From contig NZ_CP021080.1 of NCBI RefSeq assembly GCF_000802245.2, positions 6,076,001 to 6,140,000 of the forward strand: DNA of 64,000 nt, written 5' to 3'. The position numbers and the translations under genes were made by a program. A model generated the notes under the pieces. It was given only the letters and a program-made list of their open reading frames with translations. It was not told the DNA's origin and searched no databases. The stretch comes from Streptomyces pluripotens (lineage in GTDB: Bacteria > Actinomycetota > Actinomycetes > Streptomycetales > Streptomycetaceae). Below are positions 38,108 to 64,000 of this stretch, in pieces (position 1 is the first letter of the stretch; every line of letters starts with the position of its first letter).

Positions 38108-38332
38108 TCAGTAGCGGGGCGGCTTGGCGAGCAGGTCGGGGCGGGCGGCGATCTCGGGCTGGTAGACCTCGCTGTCCCATGCCTCGGGAGCGACCTCCTG
38201 GAGGGCGATGGAGATCACCGCCGCGTCCACGTCGAAGGCGTCCTGGACCGCCTCGGTGAGGCGGGCGACCAGGCGCTCGCGCTGGGGCTCGTCGAGGTGC
38301 TTGGGGAAGTGCTTGATGGTCACATGGGGCAT
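38108..38332 (-). CDS. 4-oxalocrotonate tautomerase family protein (PptA-like)
   Basis: A 74-residue tautomerase with Pro at position 2 (exposed as the catalytic N-terminal proline after Met removal). The run HVTIKHFPKHLDEPQRERL and the SIALQEVAPEAWDSEVY segment closely resemble E. coli PptA/YdcE. Such enzymes interconvert keto and enol forms of phenylpyruvate-like acids. The gene lies 65 bp downstream of the NRPS gene in the same direction, so it may be cotranscribed and act on an arylpyruvate or on the pyridine-dione product of the NRPS; this is inference. An AAGGAG site precedes the ATG. Confidence 0.88.
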   Translation of the reverse strand: MPHVTIKHFPKHLDEPQRERLVARLTEAVQDAFDVDAAVISIALQEVAPEAWDSEVYQPEIAARPDLLAKPPRY

Positions 38333-38397
38333 GGGGTTCTCCTTAAGGTCCGCGGATTGCAGTGAGTTGTTTCCAATGGGTCCGTCAGGGGTGCACC

Positions 38398-41300
38398 TCA
38401 GCGGGACGGGGGCCGCCGGGGCGCGATGCCCCCGGTGCCTCCTCCGTCCCGCTGGCTCACGCGGCGGATGGCCTTGGCGAGTTCGTCCACACCGGGGTCC
38501 TTCAGGGCGCCGTAGTGGTCGGCCTCAAGCCGGATCGCGGCGATGGGGGGCCCGGTGCGGGCCAGCAGCCGCTCCAGAGGGGATTCCCCGTCGCCGGCAG
38601 CGGTGATGATGCCGACGGGGGCCGAGATCCGGTCGCCCTCGGGCAGCCAGCCGTAGGTGCGGCGGACCAGGCGGATGATGCGGCGGACCACATTCGGGTC
38701 GGGCCAGCGCAGACGCCGGGTGACGAACTCCGCGAAGGACTCCTCGTCAGGGCCGGTGCGCAGGCACTCCTCCAACAGGGGGCCCTTCGTGGCCGCCGCG
38801 AAGACGGAGTAGAGGATGGTGCGGAAGGCGGGGTCCGTGAACAGGTCCCTACGGTCGCCCGCGCTACCGCTGGCACGGTCACCCCCGGCCTCGGTGGCGG
38901 CCCTGGCCGTGCGTCGGCCGGTGGGCGTCGTGTCCGGGACCGGGAGACGCAGCCGTGGGGAGCCGGGGGCGATCAGGATCAGTCGTTCCACCTCCTCGCC
39001 CGCTCGTTCGAGCTGCCGGGCCGCCTCGAAGGCCACGCGTGCGCCGAAGGAGTACCCCCAGAGGGTGTAGGGGCCGTCGGGTTGGACCGCGCGCAGGGCG
39101 CGGACGTCGGCGGCGGCCATGTCGGTGAGGCTGCCGTGCGGGACCTCGCCCTCGTTGAGGCCGTACGCCTGGATGCCGTAGAAGGGCCGGCCGCCGCTCG
39201 CGCGGGCGGCGAGCAGGCGCAGGTTCATGGTGTAGCCGCCGAGCCCGGGCCAGCAGAACACCGCATGACCGGCGCTCCCGGTGTGCAACCGGAGCAGCCG
39301 GGGTGCGGAGGAGCCCGAGGAAGCGTCCACCCGCTCGGCGAGTTGCTCCACGGTCGGGGCTTCGAAGAACACCTGGAGCGGCAGCGCGGTGCCGAACTCG
39401 CTGTTGATGCGGTGCACGAGGGTGACCGCGATCAGGGAGTTGCCACCGCAGGCGAAGAAGTCGTCCCGGACCGACACCTCCTCGCGCTTCATGGCGGCCT
39501 TCCACAGGTCGCACAGCCGCGCCTCGGTACGGGTGCGCGGTGGGACCACGGGTCGGTCCTCGCTGATGAGGGCGGCATCCACCCGGGCGGCGAGTGCTTG
39601 GACATCCACCTTGCCGTTGGCGGTGTGGGGCAGTCGGTCCAGCACGATGACGCGGCCGGGGACCATGTAGTCCGGGAGGAACGAGACGAGATCGTCCTTG
39701 ATCATCTCGGCCGGGCCCCTCATGTGGACCGCGTCCTCCTGCATGCCCTGGTGGGCCCGCTGTTCCGCGCTGGTCTTGCCGCCGACGGAGAAGTAGCAGG
39801 GGCCGGTGGGTCGCCCCCCGGCGTCCAGGACGGCGGCGATACGACGGGCCGCGGGCAGGTCGTGGCCCGAGTGGGAGCTGTACCCGGAAGACATGAACCC
39901 GAGGCCGGAGTCGTTGTGCTGCAGACGCTGCAGGGTGCGGCCCAGGTCGATGTACCGGCGCCAGCCGGGGCCGGACCGGCTGACCACGGTGATCCCGAAG
40001 CAGGCCCGCTCGTAGACCTGTTGGTTGATGGCGATGACGTGGCGCTTGAGGACCAGGTCGTCGGAGATCCGCTCCCACCGGCCCTCCCGGTGGAGGTACT
40101 GGCCGCTGGGCAGTCCCATCTCGCCGCCCGGGTGGACCTGGAGGTAGACGTCCACCGGGTCGGGTCCGTCCGCCGGGGCGTACGGGGCCAGGGCGAAGGA
40201 CCCGAGGTAGATGTCGTCGTCGGCGCAGTCCAGCCGGTCGAGGGTGTCTGGGTGGTGGTCCAGTTCCCGCAGTGTGAGGCCGTGACCCGGGAGGATCTCG
40301 TCGAAGAGCCCGAGCATATGGCCGGTTTCCATCTCCAGGACTTCCTGGATGTTGTTCTTGTAGACGGGCTCGATGGCGCTCCTGCGGCCGAGGAAGTGCA
40401 GTCGTACGCCGGACTCGTCGGGGACGAAGGTGGTGTCCCCGACCCGGACGAGTTGGTGCTGCTGGGGGTGGAAGTAGTACGTGCCGGGTTCCAACCCGGC
40501 GGCGCCGCCGGCGGCCTCCACGTAGAGCTGGGTGGCGTAGAGGGAGCCGGGGGAGGCGTAGGCGTACTTCGGGAGCAGCCGCTCCTCACTGTGGTGGGGG
40601 CCGAAGTCCCGCAGGATGGTGCCGAGTTCGTCCCGGGTGAGGCTGTCGGGGCGGCGCGGGGCGGTTGCGGGGACTCGGCGGGCGAGCGCCGACAGCACCT
40701 CGCCCGCGGTGGCACCGCCTCCTTCGTAGAAGCGGTACGTCTTCCGGGCGAAGGCCCGCCGCCGCTGTTCGGGGGTGGCTTCGGCGCCCGGCAGGGGGAC
40801 GGTGGGCCGGCCGGCGACGTCGGTGCGGGTACCCGGGGCCGCCAGCTGGGCCTTGACCTGGAGCCTGGACTGCTTGGACAGGTGGTGGTCGCCGGCGTGG
40901 CCCTGATCCATCAGGGCGGCCTCGCGGGGGCTGAGCTCGATGCAGGCGACCAGGTTCTGGAAGCCGGTGCGCGGGTCGTCCCGGACCAGCACGGCGGCGC
41001 CGCGCACCCAGTCGTGGGCCTCGATGGCCAGGCGTATCTCGTCGAGTTCGACCCGGAAGCCGCGCAGTTTGACCTGGTTGTCGGCGCGCCCGGTGAACTG
41101 CACGGTGCCGTCGGGGTTCTGGTGGGCGAGGTCGCCGGTTCGGTAGAGGCGGTGGTGCGGCGACGTACTGTCGGCGGGACCGTCCAGGAAGCGCTCCGCC
41201 GTCAGATCGGGCCGGCGCAGGTATCCACGGGCCAATTGGATGCCGCTGATGTAGAGCTCGCCCACCTCGCCCGGTGCGACCGGCCGGCGGTCGGCGTCCA

Positions 41301-42378
41301 AGATGTGGAAGCGCAGGCCGGGCACGGGCGAGCCGATGGACAGGGAGTGCGGACCCTCGGCGGGGAGGTCCGGCCCCACGGTGCAGGCCGAGGCGTTGAT
41401 GGTGCACTCGGTGGGGCCGTAGAGGTTCACCAGAGTGCATTCCGGGAGCACGCGGAGAAAACCGCGAGCCACGGACCGGGACAGGGCCTCTCCTCCACTG
41501 AAGAGATACTGAAGGGAGGTGCACCGGTGGAGTTCTTCGGTATCGACGAGGGCTTGGAGGAGCGTGGGAACACATTGCAGAGCCGTCACCTGGTGGCGCA
41601 CCAACATTTCCACGATCTGCGTCGGATTGCGGTGAATTCCAGGGTTTCCGACGACCACTCGGGCGCCGTAGGCAGGGGCCAGGATCTCCCATTGGGCCGC
41701 ATCGAAACTCATGGGCGTCTTGTGGAGGACGACAGCACCCGCGCCTAGCCCGTAGGTGGTTGCGAACCAGTGCATCTGATGGGTGATGGACCGGTGCTCG
41801 ATCATCACACCCTTGGGTCTTCCAGTGCTTCCAGAGGTGTAGATGACATATGCGAGGTCACCCGGTTGCGGGGACGGCAGCGGGTCGGTGTCCACACTGG
41901 CCAGTTGCTTCTCCGCTTCGTTTACTCCCCCCCGATTGTCGAGCTTCTTGAGATAGTGGTTGGCTTCGTCGATGGTGACGATCAAAGTATCCGGTGGCAC
42001 CACCCCCGCGAGGCGTTCACGAAGTTCCTCCTGGGCGAACACCACGCGCACACCAGAATTCTCGGCCATGTAACGAAGGCGCTCGTCCGGATAGTCGGGT
42101 GACAGTGGTAGATAAGCACCTCCCGCATGCAGAACTCCCCAGATTCCGACCATCAGGCAGAGCGAGGGCTCTGCGCACACGCCCACCACGGTATCGCCAG
42201 CGACGCCGAGATGCCGAAGGTAGCGGGCGAGATCCGCAGCCGCTTCCCGCAGCTCACGATAGGTAAGGCTCTCGGCTTCGTGGACCACGGCAAGCCCGTT
42301 CGGGTGTGCCGCGGCTTGGCTGGCAAGTCGTTCCACAACACCTGCACCGCCGGTCGAACCGCCGCCGGGATCGTCCAT
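38398..42378 (-). CDS. indC: Indigoidine synthetase-type NRPS (A-Ox-PCP-TE)
   Basis: A 1326-residue single-module NRPS that matches BpsA/IndC along its length. The adenylation domain (about 10-500, resumed at 880-930) has YTSGSTGRPKG, SFDAAQWEIL, YGPTECT and GRADNQVKLRGFRVEL; a flavin oxidase of nitroreductase type (about 545-870, ARKTYRFYEGG to MSSGYSS) is inserted between A8 and A10. The carrier Ser981 lies in GGNSL and the thioesterase Ser1110 in GYSFG. Known members oxidise and cyclise L-glutamine to 5-amino-3H-pyridine-2,6-dione, which dimerises to blue indigoidine. I place the start at the ATG 42378 after a GGGGGAG site. No indA/indB or phosphopantetheinyl transferase is adjacent. It is divergent from the pap operon. 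Confidence 0.95.
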   Translation of the reverse strand: MDDPGGGSTGGAGVVERLASQAAAHPNGLAVVHEAESLTYRELREAAADLARYLRHLGVAGDTVVGVCAEPSLCLMVGIWGVLHAGGAYLPLSPDYPDERLRYMAENSGVRVVFAQEELRERLAGVVPPDTLIVTIDEANHYLKKLDNRGGVNEAEKQLASVDTDPLPSPQPGDLAYVIYTSGSTGRPKGVMIEHRSITHQMHWFATTYGLGAGAVVLHKTPMSFDAAQWEILAPAYGARVVVGNPGIHRNPTQIVEMLVRHQVTALQCVPTLLQALVDTEELHRCTSLQYLFSGGEALSRSVARGFLRVLPECTLVNLYGPTECTINASACTVGPDLPAEGPHSLSIGSPVPGLRFHILDADRRPVAPGEVGELYISGIQLARGYLRRPDLTAERFLDGPADSTSPHHRLYRTGDLAHQNPDGTVQFTGRADNQVKLRGFRVELDEIRLAIEAHDWVRGAAVLVRDDPRTGFQNLVACIELSPREAALMDQGHAGDHHLSKQSRLQVKAQLAAPGTRTDVAGRPTVPLPGAEATPEQRRRAFARKTYRFYEGGGATAGEVLSALARRVPATAPRRPDSLTRDELGTILRDFGPHHSEERLLPKYAYASPGSLYATQLYVEAAGGAAGLEPGTYYFHPQQHQLVRVGDTTFVPDESGVRLHFLGRRSAIEPVYKNNIQEVLEMETGHMLGLFDEILPGHGLTLRELDHHPDTLDRLDCADDDIYLGSFALAPYAPADGPDPVDVYLQVHPGGEMGLPSGQYLHREGRWERISDDLVLKRHVIAINQQVYERACFGITVVSRSGPGWRRYIDLGRTLQRLQHNDSGLGFMSSGYSSHSGHDLPAARRIAAVLDAGGRPTGPCYFSVGGKTSAEQRAHQGMQEDAVHMRGPAEMIKDDLVSFLPDYMVPGRVIVLDRLPHTANGKVDVQALAARVDAALISEDRPVVPPRTRTEARLCDLWKAAMKREEVSVRDDFFACGGNSLIAVTLVHRINSEFGTALPLQVFFEAPTVEQLAERVDASSGSSAPRLLRLHTGSAGHAVFCWPGLGGYTMNLRLLAARASGGRPFYGIQAYGLNEGEVPHGSLTDMAAADVRALRAVQPDGPYTLWGYSFGARVAFEAARQLERAGEEVERLILIAPGSPRLRLPVPDTTPTGRRTARAATEAGGDRASGSAGDRRDLFTDPAFRTILYSVFAAATKGPLLEECLRTGPDEESFAEFVTRRLRWPDPNVVRRIIRLVRRTYGWLPEGDRISAPVGIITAAGDGESPLERLLARTGPPIAAIRLEADHYGALKDPGVDELAKAIRRVSQRDGGGTGGIAPRRPPSR

Positions 42379-42727
42379 TACTCCCCCTTGATTCAAATGC
42401 CTCAACAGTCACTCGACGGCAGGAACTATGAAAGTCGAACAACGCTTTTGGCAAGCTCTGGCCATGATGCGGATAATCAGGAAGGGTCAAGGAACATGAT
42501 GTATCCGCATATATCCTTCGTAAAGGGGTGCGCAGTCGCACACTCTCAGCCAATCCGGCGGTGCGCAGCGCAGCGATCAGCCATCACCACGCAACCTGTT
42601 TGCCCGGTTTGGGGAAATATGCACCCCCGGATTCAGTGCAGTGCGTGGACCCGACCCATCGCGCCGGTGGCACCAGGGCCACACGGTTCGGCAGAGTCGA
42701 AGCGTGGAAAGGCGGGAAGGGCGATTC
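42379..42727. promoter_or_regulatory. Divergent control region of the cluster
   Basis: 349 bp, clearly AT-richer than its surroundings, between the NRPS and papB starts. ATGCGGATA (42467-42475) and TATCCGCAT (42502-42510) are perfect inverted 9-mers separated by 26 bp, and CATGATG is directly repeated at 42463-42469 and 42495-42501. This is a good candidate site for the cluster regulator encoded at the right edge. Confidence 0.6.
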
Positions 42728-46103
<3,376 letters not shown>

Positions 46104-46169
46104 CCGTCTCCCCTCACCCGTCTTCAGCTGTCATTTCCCATTCTCCCGACGCCCCTTGGAGGGTTTCCG

Positions 46170-47849
46170 ATGACCACCTTCGCTCCAACCGTCCTGACTC
46201 CGGAGCAGCGTGCCGCCGTGGCGGCCGACGACCGCATCGGCGGCGGCAACCTGTTGCGCTCGGCGCTGGCCGTGAACCCGGCGCCCAATGAGCCGTTCAT
46301 CCACGCCGCCCGCCCGATCACCACCTGCGAGGGCGAAACCAAGCACGACTTCAGCCTCGCCGAGTTCGATGCCCTGGCGCAGAGCTGGTCGGCTTGGTAC
46401 CTGGCCCAGGGCGTCCAGTTCCGCGACCGGGTGGCGGTCTGGTTCGAGGACTCCATCAGCTATTCGCTGCATTTCTACGCCCTGGCCCAGATCGGTGCCG
46501 TGGCCCTGCTGATCAACTCCAACGCGTCGAAGGCCATCGCGACCTCGCTGATTGAGCAGACCTCCCCGGTCGGCCTGTACGCCGACCGGGACCGGCTCGA
46601 CCTGCTCGGCGATGCGGTCGGCGACCTGGGCCTGGCCTGGGTCCAGTCCGCCGAGGAACTGCCGGCCCCGCCGGCCGCGACCCTCGACGAGGCCTCGTAC
46701 TGGAAGCACCACGACGAGGACCCGGTTGCGATCCTGCACTCCTCGGGCACCACGGGTCGTCCGAAGCCGACCATCCACACCCACCGCTCGATCGTCGCCG
46801 GCCCCAAGTTCCGCCTGGTCGACCACGTGGAGCAGCCGGGCTCGGTGATGATGACCGCCCTGCCCCAGTCGCACCTGGGCTGCGTCGCCTTCACGGTGTT
46901 CGCGGTTCTCGGCGGTACCCCGATCGTGGCGCTCAGCGACGGCAGCGGCGAGGAACTGGCCGCCGCGGTCCTCAAGCACCGTCCCACCGCGGTGATGTCC
47001 TTCGCCCATGGCTACGCCGAACTGGCCAACGCCGAACTGGAGCCGGGCGCGGTCGACTCCGTGGACGTGTGGGTGTCCATCGGGGACGCCGTCCACCAGG
47101 CTCACATCACCAAGGTGCTGTCGATGCGCAGCACGGACCTCAAGCCCTCCGCCTTCTACGACCGTCTGGGCACCACCGAACTGGGCTGGGGCGCGCTGCT
47201 GAAGATCCGTACGCTGGACAGCGAGCGCAACGACCGCTGCGCGGGCAAGCCGGTCGGCGTCTCCGAGGTGACCATCCTGCGCAGGGACGGCAGCCACGCC
47301 GACGACAACGAGATCGGCCACCTGGCCGCGAAGGGTCCGGCCATCACCCCCGGCTACTGGGGCGACTCCGACACCACCTACCGGTACAAGCTGTCCGGCT
47401 ACTGGCTGCCGGGAGACATGGCCTACCGCGACTCCAACGGCGACTACTTCCTCGTGGACCGGGCCGCCGACGCCATCCACACCGAGAGCGGTACCGGCTA
47501 CTCGGTCTTCATGGAAGAGGTCATCCTCAACGACGTGCCGGACACCGGTGACGTCGCCGTCATCGCGGGCCGCGCGGACGGCCGGGTCGTCCCCGTGGCG
47601 GTGGTCACCGTCGGCCAGGGTGCGCCGGAGCCGGAGAAGCTGCTGCTGCAGGCCAACGAGGCACTGGCGGCGGCCGGACACCCGCTGCTCGGCTTCTTGG
47701 AGATCGTCAGCGACGAGGCCGACTTCCCGGTCGGGGTGACCGGCAAGGTCCTCAAGCGCCGACTCCGGGAGAAGTACGAGGACCTGCGCGCCCACGCCAA
47801 GGCCCCGCAGGGCAAGTCCTTCGCCGCGGCCTCGGGGGTCCTGGCATGA
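46170..47849 (+). CDS. Stand-alone adenylate-forming enzyme (ANL superfamily)
   Basis: A 559-residue AMP-binding protein with the phosphate loop [11 protein letters not shown] (near residue 190), [12 protein letters not shown] and a hinge/C-terminal domain that keeps the catalytic-type lysine in [13 protein letters not shown] (near 530). It should activate a carboxylate as an adenylate for transfer to CoA or an amine. The usual signature after A8 is degenerate ([22 protein letters not shown]), and the PKG position reads PKP, so it sits on an unusual branch. By position the substrate may be an aminophenyl acid. Its stop overlaps the next start (ATGA). Confidence 0.88.
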
Positions 47850-48511
47850 CCGACACCGCCGCCACCCTCGCCGGGCAGACCACGGCCGCCCCGGCCCGTC
47901 GCACCGGAAACCGCGCCCAGGTCGACTTCTACTTCGACCCGGCCTGCCCCTTCGCCTGGATCACCTCCCGTTGGATCCTGGAGGTGGCCGAACTGCGCGA
48001 GATCGACCTGCGCTTCCGGGTGATGAGCCTGTACGTGCTCAACGAAGGCCGCGAGCTTCCCGAGTGGTACCGCACCCTGGTGGACAACTCGCTCGCGCTC
48101 ACCCGGATCTGCACGGCCGTGGCCCAGCAACACGGCGAGGAGGCGCTACCGGGCCTGTACACCGCGCTCGGCACGCGCATCCACAACGGCGGCAACAAGG
48201 ACTACCGTGCCGTCGCCGCCGAGGCCCTGGCCGAGCAGGGGCTGCCGGAAGCCCTGCTCGCCGCGGCCGACACGGACGCGTACGACGAGGCGCTGCGCAA
48301 GAGCCACCACGAGGGCATGGACCCGGTCGGCGAGGAGGTGGGCACGCCCACCATCCACATCGACGGAGTCGCCTTCTTCGGCCCGGTCCTCAACTCGATC
48401 CCACGGGGAGAGGAGGCCGCGCGGCTCTTCGACGGCGCGCGCGCCCTCGCCAACTACCCCGACTTCTTCGAGCTGAAGCGGACCCGCACCGGGAAGCTCC
48501 GCTTCGACTGA
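47846..48511 (+). CDS. DsbA-family mycothiol-type oxidoreductase
   Basis: A 221-residue thioredoxin-fold protein of the DsbA family that resembles mycobacterial Rv2466c, a mycothiol-dependent nitroreductase: [60 protein letters not shown] and the tail FELKRTRTG. The active site is CPFA; the second cysteine of CPWC is absent, as I recall for Streptomyces relatives (CPWA), so a single-cysteine mechanism is expected. Its coupling to the adenylate-forming enzyme makes it part of the pathway, perhaps for reduction of a nitro, N-oxide or disulfide group, or for conjugation. A terminator follows. Confidence 0.88.
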
Positions 48512-53948: not shown

Positions 53949-54959
53949 ATGCCTGACACCCTCGCCACCCCGGTCGCCTCCTCGTTCGAGGAGCTGGTCG
54001 GTAACACCCCGATGCTGCGGCTCCGTCTCGACGGGCTGCCCGCCGGCGCCCGCGTCCTGGCCAAGCTGGAGGCCGCCAACCCGCTCTCCAGCGTCAAGGA
54101 CCGCGCCGCCCTGTCCATGCTGCGGGCCGCCGAGCAGTCGCGGGAGCTCAGCCCGGGCGCCGTCGTCATCGAGGCGACCTCCGGTAACACCGGTATCGCG
54201 CTGGCCGCGCTGGCCGCCGCCCGTGGCTACTCGTGCCGGATCGTCCTCCCCGACAACGCCTCCCGGGAACGCGTTCTGACGCTCCAGATGCTCGGCGCGG
54301 CCGTCGAGTTCACCGACTCCGCCCTGGGGTTCGCCGGCTGCGTCGAGCGCGCCGAGGAGATCCACGCCTCCCTCCCGGGCTCCTGGTACGCCCGGCAGCA
54401 CGAGAACCCCGCCAACGCGCGCGCCCATTACGAGACCACCGGTCCCGAGATCTGGCGCGACACCGAAGGACAGGTGGACTACCTGGTGTGCTCGGTGGGC
54501 ACCGGCGGCACTCTCTCCGGCACCGCCCGCTATCTGCGCGAGCGCAACCCTGAGCTGGTCGTGGTCGCGGTCGAGCCGGCCGGCTCGGCCCTACTGTCCG
54601 GCGGTGCACCCGGCCCCCACCGCATCCCCGGCCTCAACGGGGGCTTCACCAGCCCCGTCACCGACCTGACCCTCATCGACGAGGTGATCAGCGTCGAGGA
54701 TGCGGAGGCGGCTGCGGCCACCCGTGCCCTGGCCGCCACTACCGGGCTGCTGGTGGGGGTGTCTTCTGGCGCCGCGGCCCACGGCTGTGCCCAACTCGCC
54801 CGTCGCCATGACCTGTCCGGCAAGGTCGTCGCCACCGTCTTCCCGGACAGCGGGGAGCGCTACCTGAGCTGGTGGCCCCAGGAAGGGAGCGCCTGCCTCC
54901 GGACCGGCTCCGACGCTGGAGCCGACGACCGCGCTGCCGCCAGCTCCGAAGACCGATAA
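53949..54959 (+). CDS. Cysteine synthase-like PLP enzyme (OASS family)
   Basis: A 336-residue fold type II PLP enzyme with all O-acetylserine sulfhydrylase motifs: VGNTPMLRL, PLP Lys50 in SSVKDRAA, the substrate loop TSGNTGIAL, the phosphate cup VGTGGTLSG, SSGAA and PDSGERYLSW. Family members replace the acetate of O-acetylserine with a nucleophile. With a serine acetyltransferase domain two genes downstream, it probably makes a beta-substituted alanine for the peptide; plain cysteine supply is the alternative. A 30-residue hydrophilic tail follows the conserved end. Confidence 0.92.
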   Translation: MPDTLATPVASSFEELVGNTPMLRLRLDGLPAGARVLAKLEAANPLSSVKDRAALSMLRAAEQSRELSPGAVVIEATSGNTGIALAALAAARGYSCRIVLPDNASRERVLTLQMLGAAVEFTDSALGFAGCVERAEEIHASLPGSWYARQHENPANARAHYETTGPEIWRDTEGQVDYLVCSVGTGGTLSGTARYLRERNPELVVVAVEPAGSALLSGGAPGPHRIPGLNGGFTSPVTDLTLIDEVISVEDAEAAAATRALAATTGLLVGVSSGAAAHGCAQLARRHDLSGKVVATVFPDSGERYLSWWPQEGSACLRTGSDAGADDRAAASSEDR

Positions 54960-54982: not shown

Positions 54983-56254
54983 GTGAAGTTCCGAGATCTG
55001 CACCCCAACATCCGGCTGCGCATCGGCGTCGGCTTTGTCCAGCGGTGTTTCGACATCATGCTCGTGCCGCTGATGGTGATTCACTTCTCCGGCCTGTACG
55101 GAGCGGCCACCGCCGGTGTCATGACCCTCTTCGCAGCCCTCGCCACCATCGCCTGCAACCTCACCGGCGGGCACCTGTCCGACACGTACGGGCGGCGCCC
55201 GGTGCTCCTCATCGGCGAGTTGGGCGCCTTCCTGTCCTACGCCGGACTGGCGCTGGTCCTCTCCCCGCTGGTGGGTGGCAACGGCATCGCCCTGTACGTG
55301 CTCTACCTGTGTGCGGGCTGCTGCGCCGGGATCGCGCTACCGGCGAGCGAGACGATGATCGTCGACGTCTCCACCCCGGCGACCCGGCCCGCCGTGTACA
55401 CCATCAACTACTGGTCCGTGAACCTGGCGTTCATGATCGGCTCACTGATCGGCGGCTTCCTCTACGGCGGCTACTTCTTCCAACTGCTGCTGGCGGCTGC
55501 CGTCGGCACCGGCGGCATCCTGCTGGTCACCTGGTTCGGCATCAGCGAGACGGCGCCCGCGGGCACCGTGGAGAACCCGCGCGGTATCCGTACCGCCCTG
55601 GTCGGGTACGTACAGGTGTGTCGCGACCGGGTGTTCCTGCGGCTGGCCTGCGCCGCCCTGCTCATCCGCTCCATCGAGGTGCAGATCTCCTCCTCGATCG
55701 CCGTCCGACTCGGCCACGACTTCACCCCGCAGGTACTGCTGCACATCGGCTCCTGGCAACTCACCGTGGACGGCGTCAACATGCTCGGGATCATGCGGGC
55801 GATCAACACCCTGCTGGTGGTCTGCTGCGCCTTGTGGGTGGGGAAGCTGCTGGGCGGGATGGACGAGCGTCGCCGCCTCATCTCCGGCATCGTCGTCTTC
55901 ACCACGGGCTACCTGGTGTGGACCGTCAGCGGCAACGCCTGGACCCTGATCGCCGCCACCTTCGTGGTCACCGCGGGTGAGTTGATGAACGCCCCGGTCA
56001 AACAGACCCTGCTCGCCAACCTGGTACCGGAGGAGTCCCGTACCAAGTACATGGCCGCCTACGGACTCCAGGTGCGGCTCGGACTCCTCGTGGGCTCGCT
56101 CTGCGTCACCCTGAGCGCGGTCGCCAGCGTCTGGGTGATGGCGGGCCTGTTCGCCCTCTTCGGTGTGGCTGCCGTGGTGCTCTACCGGTCGCTCTTCGAC
56201 CTGGTTGCCGCCCGCAGTGCCGCCGAGCGGCAGAAGGCGGCGGTGGCCACGTGA
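54983..56254 (+). CDS. MFS transporter (second in operon)
   Basis: A 423-residue major facilitator protein with about 12 helices, motif GGHLSDTYGRRPVLLIG between helices 2 and 3 and a C-terminal RSLFDLVAARSAAER tail. I chose the GTG at 54983, which directly precedes the first conserved residues (KFRDLHPNIRLRIG); the reading frame further upstream overlaps the OASS gene. The stop overlaps the next start (GTGA). It is of a different MFS subfamily from the transporter at 51.3 kb, so the two may handle different substrates or directions. Confidence 0.92.
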   Translation: MKFRDLHPNIRLRIGVGFVQRCFDIMLVPLMVIHFSGLYGAATAGVMTLFAALATIACNLTGGHLSDTYGRRPVLLIGELGAFLSYAGLALVLSPLVGGNGIALYVLYLCAGCCAGIALPASETMIVDVSTPATRPAVYTINYWSVNLAFMIGSLIGGFLYGGYFFQLLLAAAVGTGGILLVTWFGISETAPAGTVENPRGIRTALVGYVQVCRDRVFLRLACAALLIRSIEVQISSSIAVRLGHDFTPQVLLHIGSWQLTVDGVNMLGIMRAINTLLVVCCALWVGKLLGGMDERRRLISGIVVFTTGYLVWTVSGNAWTLIAATFVVTAGELMNAPVKQTLLANLVPEESRTKYMAAYGLQVRLGLLVGSLCVTLSAVASVWVMAGLFALFGVAAVVLYRSLFDLVAARSAAERQKAAVAT

Positions 56255-59200
56255 AAGGGCAGGCCAGGCCGCTCCGTACAAGCCTTCCCCGCACTGGATC
56301 GCTGCGTACGCTGCACCTGCGGGCCATGGAGGCCCTGGACGTGATCGTCGACCGCGACCCGTCGGTGCGCTCACGCAGCGAGGCGCTGTTGCACCCCTCC
56401 GTGATCGCCCTGCTGGGCCACCGGATCGGCAACCGCCTCTACCGCGGGGGCCACCACCGGTCCGCCCGGCTGGCCTCCGCGGTCGCCAAGGTACTCACCG
56501 GCGGTGTCGAGATCCATCCCGGGGCCCGCATCGGCCGTCGCTTCTTCGTCGACCACGGCAGTGGTGTGGTGATCGGTGAGACTGCCGTACTCGGTGACGA
56601 CGTGTCGCTCTTCCACCAGGTCACCCTCGGCTCGACCGGATGGTGGCACGATCGGGTGCGGGAGCCCGCGGGGCAGGCCCGCCGCCACCCACAGTTGGGC
56701 GACGGCGTGACGGTCGGCGCCGGCGCGAGCCTGCTCGGCCCGATCACGGTCGGCGACGGCGCCCTGATCGGCGCCATGACCCTGGTGATGACGGACGTTC
56801 CCGAAGGCGTCCACGTACGAACGGCGCGAACCCCCGTTCCAGACCAGCCCGCCTCGGCTTCCACGCCGGCTACCGTCCCTGCCCCCGCACCGACCCCCGC
56901 ACCACCCCCTGCACCGGCCCACGCACCGATCCCTGCAACGGCCGCCGCGCCGGCCCCGCCACCGGCCCCCGGTCCGGCGGACACCCCGACGCCGCCCCGC
57001 AAGGGGGGTGCCCCCGGCCCCGGGGCGTTGCACACGGACCTCAGCGATGGAGCCCCGCGCGGGCTCCACAGGAAGGCAGAGACTGCAATGACCGCCAACA
57101 ACCGCATCCTGATGGTGATGCCCTACCGGCAACTCGTCGAGAAGGCCGTGGCCGCCGGCTTCCGGGTGTGGTCGATCTGGGACCCCACCCTGCAGAGCCA
57201 GGACTACCTGCGCGAGGTGGCCGCCCACTCCGAAGAGCTCCTGCTGACGGACTTCGACGACGAGGCCGGCCTGCGCCGCCTGATCCGCGGGACCGCCATC
57301 GCGCACGAGGTCGCCCACGTCCTGCACCTCGGCAAGGAGAGCACCATGCTCCCGGTGGCCGAGGAGGCAGACGCCCTCGGCCTGGCGCCCAACCCCCCGG
57401 AGTCCCTACGCCGCCTCAATGACAAGGCGGCCATGCGCGAGGTCCTCGCCGAGCACGGCCTGTCCCCGGTCCGAACCGTCACCGCGGACTCGGCGGCCGG
57501 TACCGCCGCGGTCCTGGCGGAGTTCGGCTACCCGGCCGTCGTCAAGCCGACCGGGCTCTCCGGCAGCACCGGGGTCCGATTGGTGCGGTGCCGGGCGGAC
57601 CTGGACCAGTGGGCCGCCGATCTGGACGCCCTCGGCTACCACGGGCCCGTCCTGGTCGAGGAGTTCCTGGCCGGCCCCGAGTACAGTGTGGAGACCCTCA
57701 GCGCCAACGGCAGCCACCAGGTCATCGGCATCACGCAGAAGCGCACCACGTCCGCCCCGTTGTTCGTGGAGACCGGTCAGCTCTTCCCCGCTCCGCTGCC
57801 CGAGGACACGGCGGCGGTCATGGAGAAGGAAGTCCTGGCGCTGCTGGATGCGGCCGGCCACCGCTTCGGCCCCGCGCACACCGAGCTGATCCTGACTGCT
57901 GACGGCCCCCGCATCGTGGAGTCCCAGGCCCGGCTCGGCGGGGACCGGATCCCCCACCTCGTCCGGATCGCCACCGGCTTCGACATCGAGGCGGCGATCT
58001 TCGAACTCCTCGCCGGCCGCGCGGCCGTCCTCGGCTCGGCCACCCGCGTCGGAGCCATCCGCTTCTTCCAGTTCGAGCCCGGCACCGTGGAACACGTGGC
58101 AGGGCTCGACGAGGTGCGCGCCCTGCCCCAGGTGGCCGAGGTGTCCTTCCACTTCCAGGCCGGTGACACGCTGCCGGAGACCACCAACTCGGCCAGCCGC
58201 CACGGCTTCGTCATCCTCGGCGCCGACGACGTCCAACAAGCCGACCGCGGCGCCGAGGAAGCTGCCTCACTACTGCGCGTCACCACCCGCGCCCCCCTGG
58301 TGAACGCGGTCACCACCGCACCCACCCAGCCCATGGTGCCCGAGCGCACCCTGTTGCTCCTGGGCCACCTCACGGACCCGATCCGCCAGGCCAAGGCCCT
58401 CGGCCTGAACGTCATCCTCATCCAGCACAAGGACAAGTTCGACCCCGAGCAGGCCCGGTTGGCCGATGTCACCCTGGTCGCCGACTTCACCGACTGGGCG
58501 GTGGTCGAACCCCTGGCACGCGCCGCGCACCAGATCTGGGGCTTCTCCGCGGCCCTCTCGCTGACCGAGCCGGGCCTGGAGAACGCCGGACGGATCAATG
58601 ACCTGTTCGGGCTCGGCGGCACCGGGTACGAACCGGCCCGGCTGCTACGCGACAAGCTCGCGATGCGCCGCCACCTCGCGCAGGCGGCACCACGCTTCGC
58701 GATCGGGGCAGCGCCGCTGGTGGAGCAGGGCGACCTCACGGAGTTCGGCGCCGCCCACGGCTACCCCTTCGTGGTCAAGCCGGTGGACCTGACCGCCGGC
58801 TTCGGGATCTTCAAGGTCGAAGGGCCCGAGGACGCCGGGACGGTCTGGGAAGAGATCTGCGCTGTCCGCGCGCACGGCGTGGACCGGGGTACGACGCTGT
58901 ACCGGGTCGCCGACTTCCTGATGGAGGAGTACATTCCGGGGCCCGAGTTCAGTGTGGAGTCCTTCAGCTTCGAGGGCCGCCACGTGGTCGTCGCCATCAC
59001 CGAGAAGCTGGTGGACAAGAACCACTTCGCGGAGCTCGGCCACGCCCTGCCCGCGCGTCTGACGCCCTCGCGCGAACAGCAGGTCACCGAGGCGGTCTCC
59101 GCCTTCCTCGATGCCGTCGGCATCACGGACGGCCCCGCCCACACCGAGCTGAGACTCTCCCCGCGTGGCCCCCTGATCATCGAGGGCCACAACCGCAACG

Positions 59201-59601
59201 GTGGCGGGCACATCCAGGAGTTGGTGCGGGCCTCGTACGGAATCGACCTGGCCCACTACAGCCTGGCCTGGCCGTTCCGTCTGGTGGAACCGCTGGCGGA
59301 GCGTCCGCGTCCACGGGCCGCGGGATGCGCCCGCGGACTGGTGGCAAGCGCCGGCCGAGTGGTCGCCGTCGAGGGCGTGGAGGCGCTGTGGCTGCACCCC
59401 GCCGTCCTCGCCGTGGACGTTGCTGCCCGTCCCGGAGCGCTGACCCGGGCGGCCCGCGACAACTGGGACCGGCTCGGCATGCTCGCCGTGACCGCGTCCG
59501 ACACCGACGAGGCAGTCCGGCTCTGCGAGGAACTCCTCGCGACCCGCCTCACCATCCGGGTCGATGGACCCCACCCACTCGAAGGAGGTCAGCAGCGATG
59601 A
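56251..59601 (+). CDS. Serine acetyltransferase fused to tandem ATP-grasp ligase
   Basis: A 1116-residue open frame. Residues 1-190 are a CysE-type acetyltransferase with left-handed hexapeptide repeats (GGVEIHPGARIGRRFFVDHG, GVVIGETAVLGDDV, TVGAGASLLGPITVGDGALI). A 90-residue Ala/Pro/Thr linker follows, then two ATP-grasp modules from residue 280: PAVVKPTGLSGSTGVRLV, EEFLAGPEYSVETLS, VESQARLGGDR; and PFVVKPVDLTAGFGIFKV, EEYIPGPEFSVESFS, IEGHNRNGGGH. It would make O-acetylserine for the OASS-like enzyme and form up to two amide bonds. An internal ATG at 57088, with GGAAGG upstream, could start the ligase separately. Confidence 0.9.
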   Translation: MKGQARPLRTSLPRTGSLRTLHLRAMEALDVIVDRDPSVRSRSEALLHPSVIALLGHRIGNRLYRGGHHRSARLASAVAKVLTGGVEIHPGARIGRRFFVDHGSGVVIGETAVLGDDVSLFHQVTLGSTGWWHDRVREPAGQARRHPQLGDGVTVGAGASLLGPITVGDGALIGAMTLVMTDVPEGVHVRTARTPVPDQPASASTPATVPAPAPTPAPPPAPAHAPIPATAAAPAPPPAPGPADTPTPPRKGGAPGPGALHTDLSDGAPRGLHRKAETAMTANNRILMVMPYRQLVEKAVAAGFRVWSIWDPTLQSQDYLREVAAHSEELLLTDFDDEAGLRRLIRGTAIAHEVAHVLHLGKESTMLPVAEEADALGLAPNPPESLRRLNDKAAMREVLAEHGLSPVRTVTADSAAGTAAVLAEFGYPAVVKPTGLSGSTGVRLVRCRADLDQWAADLDALGYHGPVLVEEFLAGPEYSVETLSANGSHQVIGITQKRTTSAPLFVETGQLFPAPLPEDTAAVMEKEVLALLDAAGHRFGPAHTELILTADGPRIVESQARLGGDRIPHLVRIATGFDIEAAIFELLAGRAAVLGSATRVGAIRFFQFEPGTVEHVAGLDEVRALPQVAEVSFHFQAGDTLPETTNSASRHGFVILGADDVQQADRGAEEAASLLRVTTRAPLVNAVTTAPTQPMVPERTLLLLGHLTDPIRQAKALGLNVILIQHKDKFDPEQARLADVTLVADFTDWAVVEPLARAAHQIWGFSAALSLTEPGLENAGRINDLFGLGGTGYEPARLLRDKLAMRRHLAQAAPRFAIGAAPLVEQGDLTEFGAAHGYPFVVKPVDLTAGFGIFKVEGPEDAGTVWEEICAVRAHGVDRGTTLYRVADFLMEEYIPGPEFSVESFSFEGRHVVVAITEKLVDKNHFAELGHALPARLTPSREQQVTEAVSAFLDAVGITDGPAHTELRLSPRGPLIIEGHNRNGGGHIQELVRASYGIDLAHYSLAWPFRLVEPLAERPRPRAAGCARGLVASAGRVVAVEGVEALWLHPAVLAVDVAARPGALTRAARDNWDRLGMLAVTASDTDEAVRLCEELLATRLTIRVDGPHPLEGGQQR
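57048..57068 (+). other. In-frame hairpin and possible internal start
   Basis: An 8-bp stem (57048-57055 with 57061-57068, 5-nt loop) lies in the linker of the fused gene, followed by GGAAGG (57071-57076) and ATG (57088-57090). The arrangement resembles an intergenic junction that has lost its stop codon. Internal initiation would give an 837-residue tandem ligase, close to the 867 residues of the protein encoded at 48.7 kb. Confidence 0.5.
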
Positions 59602-60416
59602 CCGTGGTCATCCTGGACCGTACGGGTCCCGGGGGCCCGCTGCCCTACGCCGCATGGCTCGCCGAGGCCGGTCACGAACTGGTGCTCGTGACCGACACCC
59701 CCGGGATCCACCCCGACATCGCTGAGGTCCACGCCCTGGCCGGCTACCCCTCGTCCGCGGCCGTGGAAACCACCGTCCTGGACCTGGCCGCGCGGCACAC
59801 TCTCAGTGCCGTGGTAGCCCTGCACCCCGCCGACCAACTCCGTGCCGCCGCCCTCCGCGACACCCTGGGGCTACCCGGCCAGAGCCGCGAGGAGGCGTTG
59901 GTCCTCGCTGACTCCGTCGCCGCCCAGACCTGGCTGCGGCGGGCCGGGCTGCCGGTGGTGGAACGGGCCGGGGTCCGCCGGGTGCTGGACCTCTACCGGG
60001 CCGCCCACGCCTGGGGCTACCCCCTCGCGGTCCGCCGGCGCAGGGGACCGGAGCGCGAGGTGGTGGCGGTACCGGACGGCGAGGCGGCCCTGCGTGCCTT
60101 CATTCGAGGACGGCAGGGCGGTACAGCCGCCTCGGCACTGGCCGGACTGACGGTGGAGCCGGTACGGGACGGACGCCGCCACCAGGGCGCGGGTCTTGCG
60201 GTGACCGACGCGGTGCTGAGCGCGCTGCCGCTCCGGGCCGGGCACCCGTACGCCGTGGAAGCAGCGTACGAGGCGCACGGTGGCTGGCGGATCGACAGCC
60301 TCCGCTACCGGCCAGGCGACCTGCGTGCGCAGACCCGCGCCCAGGCCGCCCCGCTGGCCCCCACAGTCCGGACCGACATGACCGTGGTCAGCGCAAACAC
60401 CTCGGAGGTGGCGTGA
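59598..60416 (+). CDS. Degenerate ATP-grasp-like protein
   Basis: A 272-residue protein. Its first 110 residues match the pre-ATP-grasp domain of the neighbouring ligases (VVILDRTGPGGPLPYAAWLA, ALHPADQLRAAALRDTLGLP, SREEALVLADSVAAQTWL). The ATP-binding region keeps a helix-strand outline (AHAWGYPLAVRRRRGPEREV) but has no PxVVKP lysine motif, and the metal-binding glutamate/asparagine block of intact modules is absent. It is 130-150 residues shorter than the intact single modules. It may be an inactive partner or scaffold. It overlaps its neighbour by ATGA and is followed within 1 bp by the next ligase. Confidence 0.8.
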   Translation: MTVVILDRTGPGGPLPYAAWLAEAGHELVLVTDTPGIHPDIAEVHALAGYPSSAAVETTVLDLAARHTLSAVVALHPADQLRAAALRDTLGLPGQSREEALVLADSVAAQTWLRRAGLPVVERAGVRRVLDLYRAAHAWGYPLAVRRRRGPEREVVAVPDGEAALRAFIRGRQGGTAASALAGLTVEPVRDGRRHQGAGLAVTDAVLSALPLRAGHPYAVEAAYEAHGGWRIDSLRYRPGDLRAQTRAQAAPLAPTVRTDMTVVSANTSEVA

Positions 60417-60417
60417 G

Positions 60418-61680
60418 ATGAGTGTGCTGGTACTGCACCAGATCGGTTCGGTGCAAGCCGCTCCGTACGACCGGTGGCTGGCCGACTACGACGGCGACGT
60501 CCTCTTGCTGACCTGTGCCGACAACCTGGCAGGGGTGGCGGAAGAGCTGCCCGCGGCCGGCTCGGGATACGCCCTGGCCGAAGCCGTCCCGGGCTATGAC
60601 CACAGCGGCTTGCTGGAGGAGCGGGCCCTGGACCTCGCTCGGGAGCACGAGGTGCGACACCTGGTGGCCTGTCACGAGCGGGACCTGGAACGGGCCGCGA
60701 TCCTGCGGGAGGTTCTGGACCTGCCGGGTCAGCGCATGGACTCGGTCGAGCCATTCCGTGACAAGGCGCTGATGAAGCGGATCGCGACCGAGGCCGGCTT
60801 GGAGGTGGCCCCGTGGCGGGAGGTCGAGTGCGCGAGCGAGCTCCTCGGTTTCGCGGCCGAGTTCGGCTTTCCCCTGGTCGTGAAGCCCCGGGACAGCGCC
60901 GGGTCCATGGGCGTGCGGATCCTGCACACGGAGCAGGCGCTGCGGGATTGCCTGGCGACGGACCTCGACCTCGACGGGGCCGACCAGTCCCAGCTGCTGG
61001 TGGAGGCCTATGTGCCGGGCCGGATGTGCCATGTGGACGGGCTGGTGGTGGACGGCCGTACGGTCTTCGCCTGGCCCTCGCAGTACCAGTACGCGCTGGC
61101 CACGTACGCCACCGACACCGGCCCCCGGATGGACCTCACGCTCGATGCGGACGATCCGTTGGCCGAGCGGCTGCTGAAGTTCGCCGAACGGCTCCTTGAC
61201 GCGATGCCCGGGCCCGAGCACTTCGCCTTCCACGCGGAGGTCTTCCACACCCCGGACGACCGGCTGGTGCTCTGTGAGATCGCCTGCCGTACCGGGGGCG
61301 CCGCTATTCGGGACATCGTGCGGGTCATGTCCGGGGTGGATCCCACCGAGGCGTGGGTACGGGCGCAGCTCGGTCTGCCGCTGCAGGAGGACTTGGGCAG
61401 CGGTGGGGGGCTACCGCGGCGGATGGCCGGTCAGATGGTGCTGATGAAGCGACCCGGCCGGGTGGTTTCGGTGCCGCAGGAGGCCCCGGACTTCCCCTGG
61501 ATCGAGCGGTTCACGGTGTTCGTACAGCCGGGCCAGGTGATGGGTCCGGCGACGGCCTCGTCCGACTTCCTGGTCATGGCCTTGGTGAGTGGCCGGGACC
61601 GGGCCGAATGTGTGGAACGGCTGAAACAGGTGGAGCACTGGTTCCTGGGGGAGTTGGTACTTGAACCGGTCACCCGGTGA
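60418..61680 (+). CDS. ATP-grasp ligase
   Basis: A 420-residue single-module ATP-grasp ligase: pre-ATP-grasp start VLVLHQIGSVQAAPYDRWLA, HLVACHERDLERAAILREVL, FPLVVKPRDSAGSMGVRIL (ATP lysine), LLVEAYVPGRMCHVDGLVV and the metal site LCEIACRTGGAAI, then a C-terminal domain of about 100 residues. The active-site loop MCHVDG differs from the EYSVE of the other modules, so its substrate is probably different. It is the last gene of the operon; a terminator follows. Confidence 0.91.
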   Translation: MSVLVLHQIGSVQAAPYDRWLADYDGDVLLLTCADNLAGVAEELPAAGSGYALAEAVPGYDHSGLLEERALDLAREHEVRHLVACHERDLERAAILREVLDLPGQRMDSVEPFRDKALMKRIATEAGLEVAPWREVECASELLGFAAEFGFPLVVKPRDSAGSMGVRILHTEQALRDCLATDLDLDGADQSQLLVEAYVPGRMCHVDGLVVDGRTVFAWPSQYQYALATYATDTGPRMDLTLDADDPLAERLLKFAERLLDAMPGPEHFAFHAEVFHTPDDRLVLCEIACRTGGAAIRDIVRVMSGVDPTEAWVRAQLGLPLQEDLGSGGGLPRRMAGQMVLMKRPGRVVSVPQEAPDFPWIERFTVFVQPGQVMGPATASSDFLVMALVSGRDRAECVERLKQVEHWFLGELVLEPVTR

Positions 61681-61815: not shown

Positions 61816-61852
61816 CGGGGCGCCCGAGCCAGGTGGGCCCTCGGGCGCCCCG
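61816..61852. terminator. Bidirectional terminator
   Basis: Perfect 13-bp stem (61816-61828 with 61840-61852), 11-nt loop, between the ATP-grasp operon and the convergent aminotransferase gene. The rest of the gap (61681-61933) shows nothing else. Confidence 0.8.
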
Positions 61853-61933
61853 GCCTCCGGCCCTGGGGCATGCGTCGTTCGCCCGTCAGGGACCGGGCGT
61901 TGCGACGGGGCGATGGACGGTGCCTGCCCGGCC

Positions 61934-62959
61934 CTAGTTCTGCCTGGCGAGTTCGGCGGCCACGGCGAGGACGATGTCGTTCGCCTCCGGCTCGCCGACG
62001 GTCACCCGGGCGCCCTCACCGGGGAAGGCCCGCACCAGGGCCCCGGCGGCGGCGCAGGCTTCGGCGAACCCATGGGTGCGTCGGCCGAGTGGCAACCACA
62101 GGAAGTTGGCCTCCGAGGGCGGCACTTCGAGGCCCGCCGCGAGGAGACCTTCACGAACCCGGTGGCGCTCCTTGACCACGGTGTCCACCCGCTCCATGAG
62201 CTGGTGTTCGGCGTCGAGCGACGCCACAGCCGCACTTTGGGCCAGCGAGCTCACCCCGAACGGCACGGCGGCCGCGCGGATCGCGGCCGCAACCGGTTCG
62301 TGGGCCACGGCGTACCCCACCCGAAGGCCGGCCAGGCCGTATGCCTTGGAGAAGGTGCGCAACACCACCACCTGCGGCCGGTCCCGGTAGAGCTCCACAC
62401 CGTCCGGCACCTCCGCGTCACGGACGAATTCCCGGTAGGCCTCGTCCAGGATGACGAGGGTGTGGGCGGGGAGCCGGTCGAGGAACCGCTCCAGTTCCTG
62501 GCGCCGTACGACGGTGCTGGTGGGGTTGTTGGGGTTGCACACGATGACAGCCCTGGTTTCGGCGGTGACCGCGTCGGTGAGGGCCTCCAGGTCGTGGCGG
62601 TGGTCGGTCAGCGGCACCTGGACCGACCGGCCGCCGCACATCGCGGTCAGGTGCGGGTACGCCTCGAACGACGGCCACGCATAGACGATCTCGCCGCCCG
62701 GGGACCGTCCCTGCAGTGGTCCGGCGGCGACAAGGAGGGAGTGCAGCAGGTGCTGGGTGACGCCGACGGAACCGGCGCCCACGGCCAGGTGCGAGGCCGG
62801 CACGGAGAGCCGGTCGGCGAGGGCGGCGATGAGCTCGGTGGCGAAGCGGTCGGGGTAGCGGTTGACCCGGGCCGCCTCAGTGGCCAGGAGGTCCTGGACC
62901 GCGGGCAGGGGTGAGTGAGGATTCTCATTCGCGGCGAGACCGTAGGGAGAGGAGGCCAC
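61934..62959 (-). CDS. HisC-like aromatic aminotransferase
   Basis: A 341-residue fold type I PLP aminotransferase of the histidinol-phosphate/aromatic aminotransferase group: [44 protein letters not shown] Lys205 in [14 protein letters not shown] and [10 protein letters not shown]. Such enzymes (Pat-like) transaminate arylpyruvates. In this cluster it most likely converts 4-aminophenylpyruvate to 4-amino-L-phenylalanine, a step the pap operon otherwise lacks. The GTG at 62959 follows an AAAGG site. A housekeeping role is less likely, as no his genes are near. Confidence 0.9.
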
Positions 62960-63243
62960 AGGAATACCTTTCGCATACAGGTGTCAAAGGGGCAGGCACG
63001 GCAAAGGTGCGTGCACAGTGCCGGGTGGCGGGAATGGAACACGTGAGCGGCCATGCGTCCCGCCCCGCATTTCCTTAGGGTGCGAGGTGCACGAGCCTCG
63101 CGGGCCGGGGTCGCTGGGGGGACACATAGATGAGGCCGTGCGGAGCGTGACGGAACAAAGACACATGGCACTCAATCCTCCCGGCACGGCTGGAGGCTGG
63201 TTTTCGGCGGTGGGTTCCGCGCCGCGCCGCGTCTACCGCGGGC
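62960..63243. other. Intergenic region upstream of the aminotransferase
   Basis: 284 bp between the regulator's stop and the aminotransferase start, both leftward. It probably holds the aminotransferase promoter. No coding frame, hairpin or clear repeat was recognised. Confidence 0.4.
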
Positions 63244-64000
63244 TTATGAGGCGGATCCGGGCTCCGTGAGATCCCCTTGTATGTCTCTGGCATCATCGGG
63301 AGCCACATCGAGGTGGGCCGTGTCGGTGCCGGTCACGATGCCCTCCTTGGTGTCCTTGACTCCCATCAGGTAGCCGAGCTGAAGCCGGTGCTCGGCGCCG
63401 TACTCCTCCTTGAGGCGCGCGACGTGCGATTGCAGCGAACGCAGGCTGAATCCGAGGCGGCGAGCGATCTCCCGGTCCGAGCGGCCTTCGACGAGCAGTT
63501 TGCATACGGCGTCACGTATTGCTGGGCCGATTTCCGTTGCGGCGTCCGCCGCGCGAACCGGTAGAAATGGATACGGCTCGGCGCGGTCCCAGGCCCTTTC
63601 GAAGATATCGGCCAGGAAATTCACTACGGCCGGCTCGGTCACCACGGCCGCACTTGTGCGATCTGCGTTTGCGGGAATGAATGCGGTCTGACGATCCACG
63701 ATAATCAGCCGGTCGAAGAACTCGGCGAGGGTTCGGACCTGCGCTCCGTAGCCCGTTACGGCACGTACGTATTCCTTGGTCGGTTCATCGAAGCGTGTGC
63801 TGTGTTGATAGAGGGTCCGCATGGAGATCCCGGAGGCGAGTTGCCGGCGGACGGCATTGAGCGCCGCCGTCAGTACGGCGCTTGGACGCGGGCCGTCCGG
63901 CTGCGCCGTGAGGATCTCCGTGGTGGCGTTGTCCAGGGCGTGCTGCACAGCCTCCGCGATCTCGGCCAGACCGTGAACATGGGCGAAGCCGCTGCCCGCT
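63244..64000 (-). CDS. LuxR-type HTH regulator, 5' end outside window
   Basis: The last 252 codons of a larger protein; the frame stays open to the window edge, so the start lies outside. The C-terminal LuxR/GerE helix-turn-helix (GRSDREIARRLGFSLRSLQS) is clear. The part before it (TLYQHSTRFDEPTKEYVRAV, LAEFFDRLIIVDRQTAFIPA) has the TrmB-like effector-domain layout seen in stand-alone LuxR-type regulators of Streptomyces clusters. It probably activates this cluster, perhaps through the divergent promoter at 42.4-42.7 kb; this is inference from position. No response-regulator domain is visible in the part present. Confidence 0.85.
   Translation of the reverse strand, partial: AGSGFAHVHGLAEIAEAVQHALDNATTEILTAQPDGPRPSAVLTAALNAVRRQLASGISMRTLYQHSTRFDEPTKEYVRAVTGYGAQVRTLAEFFDRLIIVDRQTAFIPANADRTSAAVVTEPAVVNFLADIFERAWDRAEPYPFLPVRAADAATEIGPAIRDAVCKLLVEGRSDREIARRLGFSLRSLQSHVARLKEEYGAEHRLQLGYLMGVKDTKEGIVTGTDTAHLDVAPDDARDIQGDLTEPGSAS

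Follow-up and report, generated by a model that had tools for sequence, protein, structure and literature searches.

The window analysed here is a stretch of 64,000 nucleotides of Streptomyces pluripotens (contig NZ_CP021080.1, positions 6,076,001 to 6,140,000), and its right-hand part carries a gene cluster that runs on past the window end. We observed that genes for nitrite supply, genes for chorismate supply, the pap genes and a diazotase gene all lie in this one locus. Judging from the sequences, we consider it probable that the cluster makes exported peptides built on nitrite-diazotised 4-amino-L-phenylalanine through the action of ATP-grasp ligases.

The initial annotation of the window had listed papB, papA and papC with an aromatic aminotransferase, six intact ATP-grasp modules, an O-acetylserine module, two exporters and an IndC/BpsA homologue, and our gene calls and profile searches bore this out. 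The aligned Lys/Glu/His-x-Glu positions are kept in six ATP-grasp modules (AG1 to AG6) and lost from a seventh (AGx), the O-acetylserine module consists of a serine-acetyltransferase-like domain and a CysK-like gene, and both exporters are of the major facilitator superfamily (MFS). A stand-alone adenylate-forming enzyme had also been reported, correctly, but its diazotase-family identity had been missed. The proposal of a 4-aminophenylalanine peptide assembled chiefly by ATP-grasp ligation stands, although it had been reached without the diazotase and nitrite genes, which were overlooked.

On its profile and structure matches, the adenylate-forming enzyme is assigned to the ATP-dependent diazotase family. 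Its best NCBIfam match was the AvaA6 diazotase (332 bits). Among structures it matched PDB 9xb8 (801.6 bits), 8ztz (277.8) and 9bq0/8tf7 (251.8), 9bq0/8tf7 being Tri17 according to the accessible part of PMC11705231; the enzyme is thus closer to Tri17 than to the acyl-CoA ligase FadD13 (91.8 bits). The entry 9xb8 is labelled FadD, and 204 compared residues were identical to the translation from a Microbispora corallina locus (L105). The deposition suggests that somebody is working on this enzyme; neither 9xb8 nor 9xbs was named in any paper that our literature search found. The diazotase family is a large one, with 316 proteins at an E value of 1e-100 among 7996 scored candidates. Over the whole window genome the AvaA6 model gave 435 bits, 332 bits (the cluster gene) and then 89 bits.

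We found that papA encodes a fused aminodeoxychorismate synthase, scoring above the TIGR00553 cut-off and carrying a GATase domain. The families of papB and papC fit a mutase and a dehydrogenase, and no model for the 4-amino substrate scored over its cut-off. A gene for a class II 3-deoxy-D-arabino-heptulosonate 7-phosphate (DAHP) synthase lies just beyond the window end, and DAHP synthases of two unrelated types recur among related clusters. In Kutzneria sp. 744 (L131, 13799-16093) a PALP domain, the LAL_C2 end of a ligase and a type I DAHP synthase share one frame, which adjoins papA, papC and the diazotase gene. Stravidin/amiclenomycin, reportedly another aminodeoxychorismate-derived peptide, was dropped as a candidate, as papC appears to resemble an aromatising dehydrogenase and a putative diazotase is present.

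Conserved core, ligase series and nitrite sources

We compared 13 clusters, namely that of the window, those of the other 11 among 392 Streptomyces genomes having a diazotase of at least 54% identity, and that of G078, from another genus (G numbers denote genomes, L numbers loci). Genes were called by codon-position GC and compared to the window proteins by BLASTP. papB, papA, papC and the diazotase gene were present in 13/13, creE with creD in 11 (not in G215 or G150), and the aminotransferase and luxR genes in 11 each. The G150 cluster is on a short contig, and its genome has a nitrosuccinate lyase on another one.

A second comparison covered the best 80 of 144 diazotase loci, in stretches of at most 21.7 kb. 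papABC lay beside the diazotase gene in 48 of these 80: in 47 of the 54 at a diazotase identity of at least 54%, and in one of the 26 below, L122, which falls just under that line. In a tree, the 49 pap-linked rows (the 48 loci and the window) all fell in one branch of 56 rows, with none among the 32 others; rows L020_x, L021_x and L027_x are to be discounted as likely wrong frames (longest open segment, very long branches), and row L106 is cut at a stop. Since L084, L089, L090, L091, L092, L096 and L117 are probably the same as G180, G354, G397, G150, G002, G347 and G215, respectively, the two comparisons are not independent.

The initial annotation had proposed that related genomes would define the cluster borders. 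The conserved core that emerged is the pap genes, the diazotase gene, AG1 and a nitrite source. Relatives of the cluster occur in many actinobacteria, across eleven named genera. Streptomyces bauhiniae (NZ_SRRT01000005.1) has two pap-diazotase clusters, L085 and L136, about 85-105 kb apart, which differ in type (AG1-3 versus six ligases). The loci L111, L115, L116, L124 and L140 belong to a Streptosporangiaceae branch of diazotases (56-57% identity) and show a stretch without papABC; L115 has AG2-, AG3- and MFS1-like genes nearby. The neighbourhoods in G005, G023 and G060 (diazotase 44-45%) were set aside, as papB, papC and the ATP-grasp genes had no match there and a weak papA match (28%) was seen in G023 only.

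The ligases are of the L-amino-acid ligase type, with the ATP-grasp fold, the LAL_C2 domain and the conserved residues (Pfam and alignment), and the closest solved structures were BL00235 and BacD. AG1 is near-constant (12/13 clusters), and the sets are nested, with one, three, five or six modules: AG1 only in G002, G347 and G078; AG1-3 in G407 and G150; AG1, 2, 3, 5 and 6 in G180, G130 and G196; and AG1-6 with AGx in G417, G354, G397 and the window. No ATP-grasp module was found in the G215 cluster. The CysK-like gene was present in 7/7 clusters with AG5/AG6 and in 0/6 others. Independent variation of pap, indC and the ATP-grasp genes between strains had been named beforehand as a result that would speak against a single pathway, and it was borne out in part: indC (8/13) and AG2-6 do vary, but in a nested and not an independent way, with pap in 13/13 and AG1 in 12/13. 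In G180 a methyltransferase-like gene of 224 residues (L061:7135-7809) stands between the aminotransferase and MFS genes, and G130 and G196 have frames of 225 and 228 residues at a like place.

A nitrosuccinate lyase gene (creD) lies 3-4 kb past the window end with a CreE-like gene, and scored 744.6 bits on NF052556 (cut-off 650). The CreE-like gene stands beside creD in 11/13 clusters and is fused to it in G196. A nitrosuccinate lyase over the cut-off was found in 11/13 cluster genomes versus 3/13 other Streptomyces. Since the window genome has three such lyases, linkage counts for more than presence; the two others (genome positions 5923019-5924404 and 6568192-6569586) and a second diazotase-family gene (435 bits, 7190256-7191830) probably belong to other N-N clusters.

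We further observed that 31 of 47 pap-linked loci show a nitrite gene: creE with creD in 18, creD alone in three, and a NasC-like nitrate reductase in ten (L097, L098, L099, L100, L101, L102, L103, L105, L109 and L139; eight Microbispora, Haloechinothrix and one metagenome-assembled genome). In the examined stretches of these ten, creE and creD had no match; a NarK-type transporter is encoded in nine of them, and a type I DAHP synthase match was likewise seen in nine. Nitrate reductase and NarK in place of creE/creD thus seem to be a different way to nitrite. At gene level, a NirB-like protein accompanies the nitrate reductase downstream of the diazotase in L097, L099, L100 and L105. The NirB-like protein of L105 spans model positions 2-466 of 794 and so probably donates electrons rather than reducing nitrite itself.

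Candidate pathway and its alternatives

The aspartate-nitrosuccinate pathway, ANL diazotases and a precedent for diazotising an amine and then removing it are described in the accessible parts of PMC10777205 and PMC11705231. In the pathway that we propose, the DAHP synthase would raise the chorismate supply, PapA, PapB, PapC and the aminotransferase would yield 4-aminophenylalanine, and CreE and CreD would derive nitrite from aspartate. The ANL-type diazotase would activate nitrite with ATP and convert the aryl amine to an aryl diazonium or its product. AG1 would then couple the diazotised amino acid to a second one, and in the window cluster AG2-AG6 would extend the peptide, giving no more than six amide bonds. 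The acetyltransferase/CysK-like pair would provide one residue, a beta-substituted alanine, and the MFS pumps would export the peptide. The N-N group could stay a diazonium, or end as an azo, triazene or hydrazine group.

We favour diazotisation because the best match is AvaA6, the enzyme is closer to Tri17 than to FadD13 and a nitrosuccinate lyase is nearby, and because of the papABC linkage (13/13 clusters; 47/54 versus 1/26 loci; a single tree branch), the alternative, nitrate-reductase source and the recurring DAHP synthases. Several observations weigh against it. At 332 bits versus a cut-off of 975 the enzyme is not an AvaA6 equivalog, and the AvaA6 model also matches in 12/14 control genomes, all below cut-off. 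Nitrosuccinate lyases over the cut-off are not rare, as the three of 13 control Streptomyces indicate, and the CreE-like flavoprotein matched the general Pfam family NAD_binding_9 only, with no NCBIfam match at 1e-8. The diazotase might instead act on the alpha-amine or on a peptide. Moreover, 16 of the 47 pap-linked loci had no nitrite gene in the examined stretch; ten of these are of the Streptomyces/Kitasatospora type, for which the longer stretches of the 13-cluster comparison reach one, and the other six (L117, L127, L128, L129, L131 and L148) also had no AG1 and may make something else.

The enzyme retains ordinary ANL motifs and scores below the diazotase cut-off, as would be expected if it activated an acyl group, the product were a plain 4-aminophenylalanine oligopeptide and the nitrite genes served otherwise. 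We hold this to be very improbable, given the placement near N-N enzymes, the constant papABC linkage and the recurrent association with nitrite sources of two kinds. Another reading accepts the diazotisation but makes it a hidden step, in which N2 leaves and a hydride, hydroxyl or thiol (e.g. mycothiol) takes its place, so that no N-N bond is left in the finished peptide. AvaA6/AvaA7 and CmaA6/CmaA7 work in this manner, as the accessible part of PMC10777205 describes, and 10/13 clusters have a gene for an Rv2466c-like protein, whose family depends on mycothiol. That gene is, however, missing from G347, G215 and G078, no AvaA7-like dehydrogenase was seen in the cluster (AvaA7 itself was not used as a query), and replacement by H or OH would yield plain phenylalanine or tyrosine; we regard a hidden diazotisation as unlikely. 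A CPFA motif was present in 15/15 cluster copies of the Rv2466c-like protein. It was rejected as cluster-specific, since two paralogues in the window genome read CPFA and CPWA; a second Rv2466c-like gene with CPFA (59% identity) lies at genome positions 6053767-6054405, some 22 kb before the window begins.

The IndC-like nonribosomal peptide synthetase (NRPS) has the domain order and insert length of IndC/BpsA (an adenylation domain with an insert, presumably an oxidase, then a carrier and a thioesterase), and a Streptomyces lavendulae plasmid encodes a protein 53.7% identical to it over 96%. The insert region was found in 61/392 Streptomyces genomes, nine of them with a pap-diazotase cluster; indC is beside papB in eight of these nine, and on another contig in G347. 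With five of the 13 clusters lacking indC as well, it is possible, though we rather doubt it, that indC and the tautomerase gene form an indigoidine-type unit of their own, next to the cluster by chance. Against this, indC is divergent from papB in 8/13 clusters, the tautomerase adjoins it in seven of those eight by BLAST match (it was not called in G196), and the gene order in G417, G354 and G397 is creE, creD, aminotransferase, tautomerase, indC, papB, which places indC inside the cluster; in L088 and L136 it is also between creD and papB. We take indC as an optional and sometimes embedded cluster part.

A conserved pentapeptide and the remaining features

At the head of the cluster's creE or DAHP-synthase side is a short open reading frame (ORF) that encodes the pentapeptide D[VI]GWN. 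We counted 19 copies in 11/13 stretches, three in the window genome (window-equivalent 64733-65047), four in G180, three in G130, two in G196 and one each in G407, G150, G417, G354, G397, G347 and G002; the reversed motif gave none. These are the same 11 clusters that have luxR. In nine, the ORF and luxR point away from each other; in G347 and G002 the ORF is upstream of creE with luxR elsewhere. Among loci with a luxR match, 7/10 show the pentapeptide (the L092 and L096 stretches end before it, and L115 has none), and AG1-bearing loci without luxR showed none of these short frames. The ORF lies at a like position in L083, L085, L086, L093, L094 and L095, and the only other match, L155, is inside a long frame. 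The frames are otherwise dissimilar. Used in full as a protein query, the small ORF matched nothing but itself, and a literature search with the motif letters gave no related paper by title.

The 25 copies fell into eight DNA variants that differ synonymously or by Val/Ile, which disfavours a DNA site, though picking copies by peptide excluded other changes by construction. A DNA pattern that covered some of the codons was found at the cluster in 8/13 cluster genomes and off-cluster as single matches in two cluster genomes and 3/13 controls; the reversed pattern gave one match each in 7/26 genomes. Since the pentapeptide tracks luxR and not AG1, our first guess is a signal or regulatory peptide, and a bolder one would be a ribosomal core for an ATP-grasp ligase.

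The expected IndC product is a nucleophilic aminopyridinedione, a possible partner in diazonium/azo chemistry. At the most speculative, the family might make arene-diazonium, azo- or triazene-bridged di- to heptapeptides with 4-diazonium-phenylalanine, in which, in indC-bearing members, the IndC/tautomerase aminopyridinedione or the Trp of D[VI]GWN would capture the diazonium as an azo pigment or ring; we give this a small chance.

The features of the locus are collected in the table. Between papB and AG6, 7/12 joins on the + strand overlap, six of them by 4 bases with the chosen starts (papB is open from 42641, and its start was our choice); the IndC-like NRPS and tautomerase genes run in the opposite direction. 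A promoter scan of the indC/papB gap gave two sites versus 0.5 expected (a weak result), and a terminator scan found none. Rfam gave zero matches within the window. An XdhC-family protein is encoded at window positions 33723-34994, outside the cluster.

Features of the cluster, in window coordinates; positions past 64000 are window-equivalent
Feature	Position	Strand	Basis or remark
4-Oxalocrotonate-tautomerase-like protein	38108..38332	-	Pfam Tautomerase
IndC-like NRPS: adenylation, insert of ~500 residues, carrier, thioesterase	38398..42405	-	Optional part
papB, chorismate-mutase family	42728..43030	+	TIGR01803 84.4 bits, cut-off 73.35
papA, fused PabA-PabB aminodeoxychorismate synthase	43027..45201	+	TIGR00553 352.2 bits, cut-off 328.4; GATase domain
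papC, prephenate-dehydrogenase-like	45198..46103	+	Pfam PDH_N and PDH_C; NCBIfam models below cut-offs
Putative ATP-dependent diazotase-family enzyme (AMP-binding)	46170..47849	+	NCBIfam AvaA6 best match
Rv2466c-like DsbA-family protein, single Cys in CPFA motif	47846..48511	+	Pfam
AG1-AG2, two L-amino-acid-ligase type ATP-grasp modules	48710..51313	+	Pfam, alignment
MFS exporter 1	51310..52713	+	Pfam
AG3, ATP-grasp ligase	52710..53933	+	Pfam, alignment; start chosen by us
CysK-like pyridoxal phosphate enzyme (beta-substituted alanine)	53949..54959	+	TIGR01136 347.1 bits, cut-off 344.15
MFS exporter 2	54983..56254	+	Pfam
Serine-acetyltransferase-like domain fused to AG4 and AG5	56251..59601	+	Pfam, NCBIfam, alignment
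AGx, degenerate ATP-grasp-like protein	59598..60416	+	Alignment
AG6, ATP-grasp ligase	60418..61680	+	Pfam, alignment
HisC/aromatic aminotransferase	61934..62959	-	PRK03321 455.4 bits, cut-off 374
LuxR-type regulator	63244..64000, continuing to 64455	-	Cut by window end; scanned part without NCBIfam or Pfam match
CreE-like, nitrosuccinate lyase, class II DAHP synthase and phosphoenolpyruvate-mutase-family genes	65096-70737		Past the window end

Relation to known systems

In the searched literature, with most subscription journals and MIBiG outside its reach, we found, among the matches listed, no description of a diazotase combined with 4-aminophenylalanine and ATP-grasp ligases, no paper with both 'diazotase' and 'ATP-grasp', and no described product for this cluster family. 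The accessible texts of PMC11705231 and PMC13061610 make no mention of aminophenylalanine or ATP-grasp, and that of PMC11429834 none of phenylalanine or ATP-grasp. If our proposal is true, this is an orphan cluster family that joins 4-aminophenylalanine supply, nitrite supply, diazotisation and ATP-grasp peptide assembly. It would offer candidate enzymes for 4-diazo-phenylalanine, a series of one, three, five and six ligases useful for working out ATP-grasp chain order, clusters in which the nitrite for a natural product seems to come from a nitrate reductase, and a conserved pentapeptide whose role can be tested.

Pap pathways to 4-aminophenylalanine are said to operate in chloramphenicol and pristinamycin biosynthesis. 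The dnacin pathway likewise uses a fused aminodeoxychorismate synthase, a mutase and a dehydrogenase for 4-aminophenylalanine, but it is NRPS-based, and the accessible part of PMC7570522 names no diazotase or nitrite supply. The ava and cma clusters (avenalumic and p-coumaric acid) likewise pair an ANL-type diazotase (AvaA6, CmaA6) with CreE/CreD nitrite supply; their amine is 3-amino-4-hydroxybenzoate-derived, with a type II polyketide synthase and denitrification by AvaA7/CmaA7 (PMC10777205, accessible part), whereas the window cluster has pap and ATP-grasp genes. Triacsin (Tri17), cremeomycin (CreM) and the tasikamides (Aha11) also involve nitrite-dependent ANL enzymes of N-N formation (PMC11705231 and PMC11429834, accessible parts), but on other substrates and with no ATP-grasp peptide series.

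In bacilysin (BacD) and other L-amino-acid ligase peptides, an ATP-grasp ligase caps an unusual amino acid, as it would here; unlike bacilysin, the window family has up to six ligase modules and a putative aromatic diazotised residue. Pheganomycin biosynthesis reportedly pairs an ATP-grasp ligase with a small gene that encodes a short peptide in repeated form, whereas the D[VI]GWN ORF tracks the LuxR-type regulator and not AG1.

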